Of a DNA stretch of 64,000 nucleotides, positions 56,028-59,394 are shown in pieces. Source of the DNA: Chloroflexota bacterium (GTDB taxonomy: Bacteria > Chloroflexota > UBA11872 > VXOZ01); NCBI GenBank assembly GCA_958295775.1, contig CATQHC010000003.1, positions 186,001 through 250,000 on the forward strand, given 5' to 3'. The position numbers and the translations under genes are program-made. The number at the start of each line of letters is the position of its first letter. Position 1 is the first letter of the stretch. Under the pieces are notes generated by a model. The model did no database searches. It was not told where the DNA came from and saw only the letters and a list, made by a program, of their open reading frames with translations.

Positions 56028-57854
56028 GTGACTGAATCACTAACGGCGACGGCTGAGGCACAGGAGACCGGCGCGGAGTCGGTGCGTTGGGACTTGAGAG
56101 ATCTCTACGCCGGGCCGGACGATCCAACGATAGAGGCCGATTTCAAGGCCGCGCTAGAGCAGGCGCAGGCGTTCCAGGAAACGCACAGAGGCCGAGTTGC
56201 CGCAGGCGAGATTACTCCGGATGAGTTCGTGGCGGCAGTTGAGGAGATCGAGCGGATCTACATGTGCGGCCATAAGGCCATAATGTTCGCGCATCTGGTC
56301 TTCTCGGTGGATACGGCCGACCCGGCGCACGGGGCCTTGCTGCAGCGCACGGAGGAACAGGTCACCGCGGTGCAGAACACGCTGCTCTTCTTCGACGTGG
56401 AGTGGCGGCAGGCGGACGATGGCTTTGCCGAACGTATTCTGGCGCACCCGCCGCTCGCGCGGTACGCGCACTCTTTGCGGCAGGAGCGGGCCTTCGCGCC
56501 CCACACTCTCTCCGAGGCCGAGGAAAAGCTGGACGCCGAAAAGCGCCTGACCGGCATCAGCGCCTTCCAGCGGCTCTTTGACGAGCGCACCAGCCGCTTG
56601 CGGCAAACAATCACGCTGGATGGCGAGCGCAAGGAGATGAACGAGACCGAACTCCTGGCGCTGCTTTACCATCCCGACCGCGCCGTGCGGCGGCGCGCGC
56701 AGATTGCCATGACGAAGGCGCTCCAAGACGACGCCCATATTCTGACGTTCATCTTCAACGTGGCGGCGCAAGAGAAGGCCATCGAAGACCGCCTGCGGAA
56801 CTTTCCCGACCCCATGTCGTCACGCAATCTGGCCAACGAAGTTGACGACGCCACGGCTCACGCCATGCTCGATGCGGTGACGCAACGGTACGACATCGTT
56901 GCCGACTACTACACCCTCAAGCGCCGCATGCTGGGCTACCGCAAACTCTACGACTACGACCGCTACGCGCCGGTGTTTCCCCCGCCGGAGGGCGGCGTCG
57001 ACTTCGGTGAGGCCAAGGCGCTTGTGCTCGACGCCTACCAGGCCTTTTCGCCGGAAGTGGGCAACCTAGCCGGAGAGTTCTTTGAGAAGCAGTGGATCGA
57101 TGCCGCTGTATTGCCCAATAAGCGCGGGGGCGCGTATTGCCAGCCCTGCTTGCCCAGCTTGCATCCCTATGTCTTTCTCAACTACATGGGCAACCAGAGG
57201 GACGTGATGACGCTGGCCCACGAGCTCGGCCACGGCATCCACGCTCGCCTTTCTCGCGAACAGTCGTACCTCGAATTTGATACGTCACTGGTGGTAGCGG
57301 AGCTTGCCAGCACGTTTGGCGAGATGCTGACATTCCACCTGCTCATGGAACGCACCAGTGACCCGCGCGTGCGGCTCAGTCTGCTGGCGCAGAAGATCGA
57401 GGACTCGTTCGCGACGGTTTTCCGCCAGGCGGCGATGCACCAGTTCGAGTACGGGCTGCACACCCGCCGCCGCAGCGAGGGCGAACTCACGGCGGAGACC
57501 ATCGGCGAAATCTGGATTGAGCAGCAGTCGGCCATGTTCGGCGACTCCGTGGCGATGACGGAAAACTACCGTCACTGGTGGGCGTACATCCCGCACTTCA
57601 TCCACGTGCCGTTCTACGTCTACGCCTACCCCTTTGGCGAACTGCTCTCGCTCTCGCTATACCATGCGTATCAGCAGCAAGGCGCGCCCTTTGTGGACGT
57701 GTATCGCGGCATGCTGGCGGCCGGCGGCAGCGAATCCCCCGCCCAACTCATGCAACGCGCCAACATCAACACCGCCGACCCCGCCTTCTGGCACGGCGGC
57801 CTGGACATCATCCACAACATGGTGCAAGAGGCGAAAACGCTGGCCGAAGTGTGA
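56028..57854 (+). CDS. pepF: Oligoendopeptidase F (M3 family)
   Basis: The 608-residue zinc metallopeptidase carries the active-site motif HELGH (residues 398-402, TLAHELGHGIHARL) and a downstream Glu (LASTFGEML). The fingerprints YCQPCLPSLHPYVFLNYMG and AYPFGELLSLSLYHAYQQQG belong to PepF proteins that degrade cytosolic peptides of 7-17 residues. AGGAG precedes the GTG start. It is close behind lepA, though no functional link is known. Confidence 0.94.
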   Translation: MTESLTATAEAQETGAESVRWDLRDLYAGPDDPTIEADFKAALEQAQAFQETHRGRVAAGEITPDEFVAAVEEIERIYMCGHKAIMFAHLVFSVDTADPAHGALLQRTEEQVTAVQNTLLFFDVEWRQADDGFAERILAHPPLARYAHSLRQERAFAPHTLSEAEEKLDAEKRLTGISAFQRLFDERTSRLRQTITLDGERKEMNETELLALLYHPDRAVRRRAQIAMTKALQDDAHILTFIFNVAAQEKAIEDRLRNFPDPMSSRNLANEVDDATAHAMLDAVTQRYDIVADYYTLKRRMLGYRKLYDYDRYAPVFPPPEGGVDFGEAKALVLDAYQAFSPEVGNLAGEFFEKQWIDAAVLPNKRGGAYCQPCLPSLHPYVFLNYMGNQRDVMTLAHELGHGIHARLSREQSYLEFDTSLVVAELASTFGEMLTFHLLMERTSDPRVRLSLLAQKIEDSFATVFRQAAMHQFEYGLHTRRRSEGELTAETIGEIWIEQQSAMFGDSVAMTENYRHWWAYIPHFIHVPFYVYAYPFGELLSLSLYHAYQQQGAPFVDVYRGMLAAGGSESPAQLMQRANINTADPAFWHGGLDIIHNMVQEAKTLAEV

Positions 57855-58018
57855 GGGCACTCGTAAGTTGCTTTCAGATTAAGCCGATTGACGTGCCTTC
57901 TTGGTTATTGGGGTTGTGAATTAAGTCACAGGATGAATGCTAGAGTCAACAGGCGCTATTGGCTTAAATGCATGGTATGCTCAGGGTAGGAATAGGTTCG
58001 ATTTAGGGGGTAATAGCG

Positions 58019-58570
58019 ATGGGCAACAATCCAGAGCCCAACGAGGTGAAGTTCAAGGAACTCCTCATTTACATCGCGTTGTGTTCGGAGGGTGACGACT
58101 CATTCGGAGCAGTCAAACTCAATAAACTGTTGTTTCTTTCAGACTTCTTAGCCTATTTGCGGCTTGGTAAAGCGATGACATGGGTAGTGTATCAAGCACT
58201 ACCACAGGGTCCCGCGCCAAGAAGACTCGTGCCAATTCGCGAGGAACTAGAGGAAGAAGGCGCAATTGCTGTCAGGCAAGAGGACTACTATGGGCATGAT
58301 CAGAACCGCATACTTGCCTTGCGCAGGGCAAACTTGAAGCTTTTCTCATCAGAAGAAGTGGATATAGTTCGGCAGGTAATCGAGCTTTGCAGAGGAAAGA
58401 ATGCCAATGAGATTAGTGAATTCTCTCATAGGTTTCTTGGCTGGCGGCTGGCAGATCAGGGAGAGGAAATTCCCTACAGTAGTGCATTAATTGGATCGCG
58501 TGAACCTTCGAGACGGGAAAGGGAACACGGCCTCAACCTGGCTGACGAGGCAGCAGGTCTTCTCTCATAG
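58019..58570 (+). CDS. Panacea-domain (SocA-like) antitoxin
   Basis: The 183-residue protein has the Panacea-domain core AVKLNKLLFLSDFLAYLRLG, ALPQGPAPRRLVPIREELEE and EGAIAVRQEDYY. Panacea proteins neutralise diverse toxins encoded next to them by binding directly. The ATG follows AGGGGG. A RelE-like toxin remnant begins six bases after its stop, giving the usual antitoxin-first order. The DNA is more AT-rich than its neighbours, which fits an acquired accessory locus. It appears intact. Confidence 0.8.
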   Translation: MGNNPEPNEVKFKELLIYIALCSEGDDSFGAVKLNKLLFLSDFLAYLRLGKAMTWVVYQALPQGPAPRRLVPIREELEEEGAIAVRQEDYYGHDQNRILALRRANLKLFSSEEVDIVRQVIELCRGKNANEISEFSHRFLGWRLADQGEEIPYSSALIGSREPSRREREHGLNLADEAAGLLS

Positions 58571-58576
58571 GAAAAC

Positions 58577-58858
58577 ATGCCAGCATACCGAGATGTTGTC
58601 CGCACAGAACGCTTCGAGCGGGAACTAAAGAAGATTGAAGAGGATCCACTGCGTGCGGATGAGTTCACAGAAGCCGTCGAATGGACACTGGCGCGAGATC
58701 CTACTTCCGGCACTCAGATAAGAGAAGATCCGCCAATCTAGTACATCCCTATGTTGGATCTGCCTTATGGCAGTTCTCTAGCGATCTACTACACTTTCGA
58801 CGACAGGAAAGTGTGGCTGCTATCAATTCTCTTGTCGCACTTCTATGAAGTTTTTTGA
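58577..58858 (+). pseudogene. RelE/ParE-like toxin gene interrupted by an amber codon
   Basis: The frame begins ATGCCAGCATACCGAG and encodes AYRDVVRTERFERELKKIEE, WTLARDPTSGTQIREDPPI, then a TAG at 58739-58741. It continues in the same frame as YIPMLDLPYGSSLAIYYTFD, DRKVWLLSILLSHFYEVF and a TGA at 58856-58858. The rebuilt 93-residue protein looks like a RelE-type mRNA interferase of the group that ends PPxW-x-IPM...YYTFDD. Homologs I recall have Trp where the TAG stands, so a single TGG-to-TAG change would explain it. No frame shift is needed. It is next to an intact Panacea antitoxin. Confidence 0.75.
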
Positions 58859-58950
58859 CACTTGCAGCGCAGACATATGCCGCACTCCCAGCGCCCTACA
58901 TCCTTGTCAATTCTGCAATTCCCAACAAGCATCTAGTTTCTGGCAGAAGT

Positions 58951-59394
58951 CTAGCGTCCGGTGGCTTCCTTATTCAACCGTGTGAAGAACTGCTTCATGA
59001 GCAGTTTGGCGGCTTGGTTCATGAGGCGTTGGCCGACGCGGGCCAGGGTGCCGCCGGCTTGCGCGTCGCCGGCCACGTGGATGGTGGTGACGCCTGGCTT
59101 GTCCTCCGCGAGGGAGAAGGCGCCCTCGCCTTTCACAAAGCCGGGGCCGCCTTTGCCTTCCACGATCATGCGGTAGCCGTGGGGCGGGTCGCGGTCGGCC
59201 ACCGCCACCGTGCCCTGGTAACGGCCTTTGATACCGGCCACGCCCACGTTGAGGGTAGCCGCGAAAGAGTCTGCGCCGGTCGGTTCCAGCTTTTCGCAGC
59301 CGGGGATGCACACCGCGAGCACGTCCGGGTCTTGCAACAGCTCCCAGACGTGGTCCTTCCCCGCTTTGATCGTGAACGTACCCTCTACCTTCAT
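58951..59394 (-). CDS. coxG: CoxG-like SRPBCC protein (CO dehydrogenase subunit G)
   Basis: The 147-residue protein starts MKVEGTFTIKAGKDHVWELL and has DPDVLAVCIPGCEKLEP, the CoxG/SRPBCC signature. The family is encoded with molybdenum hydroxylases and is thought to recruit the enzyme to membranes or help its maturation. It is divergent from coxS, 462 bp away, so it is likely expressed separately but from the same control region. The ATG has a weak AGGGAA site. Confidence 0.85.
   Translation of the reverse strand: MKVEGTFTIKAGKDHVWELLQDPDVLAVCIPGCEKLEPTGADSFAATLNVGVAGIKGRYQGTVAVADRDPPHGYRMIVEGKGGPGFVKGEGAFSLAEDKPGVTTIHVAGDAQAGGTLARVGQRLMNQAAKLLMKQFFTRLNKEATGR

Follow-up and report, generated by a model that had tools for sequence, protein, structure and literature searches.

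Within the window, a stretch of 64,000 nucleotides of chromosomal DNA (G000:C3:186001-250000), lies what is probably a type II toxin-antitoxin (TA) module of the PanA-PanT kind in which one stop, replacing a conserved Trp codon, has inactivated the toxin gene, the antitoxin gene being intact. The locus would thereby be a clear case of TA-module death that begins with the toxin, lost through one stop codon, and spares the antitoxin. An intact copy occupies the same site in the chromosome of a congener (G001), allowing a direct comparison with the broken pair.

Organization of the Locus

The features of the locus and its flanks are as follows.

56028-57854, + strand: upstream flank, a gene named from its sequence as an M3-type oligopeptidase; the same upstream neighbor is present in G002
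58019-58570, + strand: panA, intact Panacea-domain antitoxin gene, 183 aa, with TAG as its stop
58577-58858, + strand: panT frame, RelE/ParE-fold toxin gene, 93 codons ending in TGA with the break at codon 55; a pseudogene as it stands (full-length alignment to the intact G001 toxin; fold from the G001 homologue)
58577-58741, + strand: shortened ORF of 54 aa, the predicted product; on the G001 model it reaches from strand 1 through the two helices and strand 2 to the second residue of strand 3
58739-58741, + strand: in-frame TAG, where all intact Panacea-linked relatives found encode Trp
58742-58855, + strand: the 38 toxin-frame codons beyond the stop, untranslated, with codon-position constraint still visible
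58951-59394, - strand: CoxG-like gene (SRPBCC, name inferred); in each of the six genomes of the genus it forms the conserved edge of a variable slot

The antitoxin gene is preceded by a purine-rich ribosome site (AGGGGGT), and its product matches the Panacea model of Pfam (PF13274) over residues 34-142, scoring 54.4 bits (cut-off 25.7; E = 2.9e-14). It is the sole Panacea gene of the genome. A search of genome contigs with the antitoxin returned only a distant match (33%), from Peregrinibacteria, and with PHROGs the same query gave one weak family of unknown function.

Only 6 nt (58570 to 58577) separate panA from the panT frame, well within the distance of ≤100 nt between adjacent genes by which PanAT pairs have been defined (PMC8832971). 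From its ATG at 58577, panT runs through 54 codons to the TAG at 58739-58741 and then, with no frameshift, through a further 38 codons to the TGA at 58856-58858. The original prediction had described an intact antitoxin frame followed by a toxin frame that continues unshifted on both sides of the TAG, and each part of this description is confirmed: the antitoxin frame is uninterrupted between exactly the coordinates given, and all 93 positions of panT (58577-58858) align without a gap to an intact ORF in the congener. The inactivation had also been called single-step, which fits the one lesion in an otherwise intact frame.

In the window, antitoxin and toxin share one reading frame, parted only by TAG GAA AAC (58568-58576). 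An antitoxin-toxin fusion made by readthrough of both TAG codons was considered and rejected because the spacer in G001 is one base shorter and the two frames differ there.

Intact Homologues and the Conserved Tryptophan

Homologues were sought in 101 genomes and then in 400 genomes of the phylum. Among the 101 genomes, close relatives of both the toxin and the antitoxin were found in the congener only, where the two genes are adjacent and uninterrupted with the toxin directly behind the Panacea gene. The G001 toxin aligns with the panT frame over its full 93 positions (E = 1.5e-43, 73% identity, gapless), and given such an alignment to an intact ORF, the frame in the window is not a product of chance. 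Upstream of the stop 45/54 residues are identical and downstream 23/38, so that the downstream 38 codons, whose homology to toxin C-termini had been one of the points on which the original prediction might fall, are indeed those of a toxin. The two antitoxins are 80% identical.

A codon-by-codon comparison revealed TGG in G001 at the position of the TAG. The search of the 400 genomes of the phylum added further Panacea-toxin pairs in G327 and G129, and G056 carries another; in all four genomes, the Panacea gene is followed by a homologous toxin. Trp is invariant at the column of the stop in 4/4 of these intact Panacea-linked toxins, which come from G001 and three further genera. The change from Trp to stop, postulated earlier from family pattern, is thus borne out by TGG in the congener and Trp in all four intact homologues, and the TGG-bearing homologue beside a Panacea gene that would support it exists at the same chromosomal site in G001. 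As expected of a pseudogene, the disabling lesion is absent from the intact orthologue (TAG vs. TGG).

Searches of plasmids and phages with the toxin gave no match, and viral contigs, scanned for the exact pattern surrounding the stop, gave none either. Two more Panacea genes of the phylum (L008:1218-1980 and L007:1170-2064) lie beside small partner ORFs that are weakly or not related to panT, which is in line with partner swapping. The partner in G077 matches the toxin profile over residues 6-41 only.

Fold of the Toxin and Relation to Known Systems

The intact G001 toxin was modeled by AlphaFold2 from a four-row alignment (pLDDT 83.1, pTM 0.75). The model comprises a strand (6-9), two helices (11-20 and 24-40) and four further strands (46-50, 53-61, 66-74 and 78-88), the beta-alpha-alpha-beta-beta-beta-beta order of the RelE/ParE superfamily (RelE, ParE, HigB2, YoeB). 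With Foldseek, its top matches in the PDB are mostly toxins of the RelE/ParE/HigB type (TM 0.56-0.71, probability 1.00), including HigB2 (8a0x), ParE (6x0a) and the M. tuberculosis RelE1/RelE2 toxins (RelE entries 9g12 and 3g5o); the E-values are weak, the best being 1.5e-3. On this predicted structure, assignment of the toxin to the RelE/ParE/HigB fold is good. By sequence, the toxin remains below the Pfam cut-offs, with sub-threshold ParE-like scores for PF15781 (16.4 bits; cut-off 28) and PF05016 (16.5 bits; cut-off 23), and searches of NCBIfam and of the sequences of solved structures returned no hit and nothing relevant, respectively. The earlier label "RelE-like" therefore holds for the fold of the G001 toxin and fails by Pfam cut-offs.

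E. coli RelE needs the arginines R61 and R81. These residues have no evident counterpart in the G001 toxin, which lacks Arg after residue 41, and the label of a RelE-type mRNase is therefore withheld on present evidence; by alignment, the G327 relative has several Arg in the same half.

In the modeled fold, the stop falls two residues into the strand at 53-61, such that three of the five strands are lost. Loss of function is therefore expected, and the 54-residue product of panT would be inactive.

PanA-PanT systems combine Panacea (DUF4065) antitoxins with many kinds of toxin, partners with ParE domains included (Kurata et al., 2022; PMC8832971), and RelE/ParE are among the commonest folds of the NetFlax network of 2023, which also shows direct neutralization by standalone Panacea (PMC10440598). 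The original prediction had singled out the pairing of a Panacea domain with a RelE-type partner; the pairing is present at the level of fold, but it is no novelty, having been described in both of these studies. As in known PanA-PanT systems, the Panacea antitoxin comes first with the small toxin directly after it, and the pair recurs in several species. The locus differs in that the toxin frame of the window carries a stop and its toxin cluster matches no curated family over cut-off. The Panacea model of Pfam is named after the SocA antitoxin of the SocA/SocB system, but SocB belongs to a different toxin cluster, T10 (PMC8832971). The locus is an inactivated, ordinary member of the known PanA-PanT kind, and with it the RelE/ParE-fold partners known for Panacea grow by one toxin cluster.

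As a working scheme, the upstream Panacea antitoxin would be co-expressed with the small RelE/ParE-fold toxin, which it would bind and neutralize, the intact pair presumably being a working toxin and antitoxin. In the lineage of the window, a single stop at the conserved Trp codon of the toxin would then have cut the protein to 54 residues, with the last three strands missing, and left the antitoxin gene intact; loss of the toxin with retention of the antitoxin is the viable order of decay. The loss is presumably real and fixed in the population.

TAG as a Stop Codon and the Age of the Lesion

TAG is a real stop in this genome, which uses the standard genetic code. It ends 22/46 of the main ORFs in the window, more than any other stop, and release factor 1 (RF1) is encoded in the genome. 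Of the 47 tRNA genes found, none has a CUA anticodon, and the best profile match to PylS scores 20 bits against a cut-off of 178. Together, these data rule out an alternative code involving pyrrolysine or amber suppression.

Compared with G001, the 38 codons after the stop show 10, 9 and 22 differences at first, second and third positions, respectively, a third-position excess (22/41, p = 0.006), while flanking intergenic DNA of the two genomes is ~54% identical. Most of the divergence therefore arose under coding constraint. When neutral drift of ≥0.4 substitutions/site was simulated from the G001 sequence, <7% of runs kept first- and second-position changes this low and also acquired no new stop, and drift above roughly 0.4 substitutions per site is disfavored. 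With the post-stop frame still constrained, the stop must be younger than the split of G000 and G001. The lesion had been proposed to be recent; this stands as an upper bound only, its age lying anywhere between one generation and a good part of the branch, a range that precludes finer dating.

The share of first and second positions that differ is higher in the post-stop codons (19/76) than in those preceding the stop (10/108; p = 0.007), in a pairwise comparison with G001 whose changes may lie on either branch. Constraint may have eased once the stop had arisen, or the C-terminus may be looser by nature. The TA pair also has a higher dS between G000 and G001 (1.2-1.7; window 58019-58858 vs. 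L006/L021) than flanking coxL (0.67) and coxG (0.40), which may be due to codon bias in the cox genes or to allelic exchange.

Alternative Explanations for the Stop

The stop might instead be an artifact of sequencing, assembly or consensus calling, or the allele of a minority strain carried into a metagenome-derived assembly, the toxin of the living organism being intact. One base separates the TAG from the homologous codon, the remainder of the frame is intact and constrained, and the source genome (3.42 Mb, 9 contigs, 2.3% contamination) does look metagenome-assembled. However, the TAG stands in a non-homopolymer context, where consensus substitution errors are rare, and the LepA, oligopeptidase, Panacea, CoxG and 793-aa CoxL-like frames nearby are all uninterrupted, indicating that the assembly is not generally error-ridden. 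An artifact or minority variant is accordingly judged rather unlikely.

A second explanation, compatible with panT being a pseudogene, is that the truncated fragment or the solitary antitoxin has been kept for a purpose, e.g., as an orphan antitoxin against related incoming modules. Related Panacea pairs exist elsewhere in the phylum, and the panA frame is both intact and constrained (dN/dS 0.08 against G001). This constraint, however, is a mean across two lineages, most of it older than the stop, and we regard retention for a purpose as unlikely; the more specific proposal, that selection has retained the lone Panacea antitoxin, by itself or together with the 54-residue fragment, in an anti-addiction or sensor role within a slot that exchanges defense cassettes, is slightly less likely still.

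Low-level synthesis of the toxin through readthrough or reinitiation, the TAG then throttling a live gene, is very improbable: the third-position excess and an ATG three codons downstream of the stop (58751) would suit it, but the usage of TAG, RF1, the tRNA complement and the sub-threshold PylS score argue against readthrough, no ribosome-site sequence precedes 58751, the resulting 35-aa C-terminal product would have neither helix, pre-stop history accounts for the post-stop constraint, and no relative has a stop at that codon.

A Variable Slot Beside coxG

The module sits in a slot of variable content, in which the wider value of the locus lies: across six genomes, it holds the TA pair, two other kinds of candidate phage-defense genes, or nothing. 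Homology among the six ends at the 3' end of coxG. The TA pair directly adjoins coxG in both G000 and G001, at the same chromosomal site. Beside the 3' end of coxG, G002 carries a candidate defense gene resembling PDC-S11 of PADLOC, G003 and G004 carry a PD-T4-4/PDC-M47-like ATPase with a small partner as a two-gene defense candidate, and in G005 the slot is empty, with only ~145 bp. Neither an integrase nor a tRNA was noticed at the slot.

The oligopeptidase gene, whole in G000 and G002, is missing from this place in G001, where a 3' remnant of ~41 codons persists upstream of the Panacea gene (L021:5056-5169). Retention of this remnant suggests that the TA pair occupied the site before the oligopeptidase gene was lost there. 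The variable slot spans 57855-58950 in the window and L017:2949-4974, L018:1853-3887, L019:3225-3369, L020:3167-4240 and L021:5327-6173 in the other genomes.
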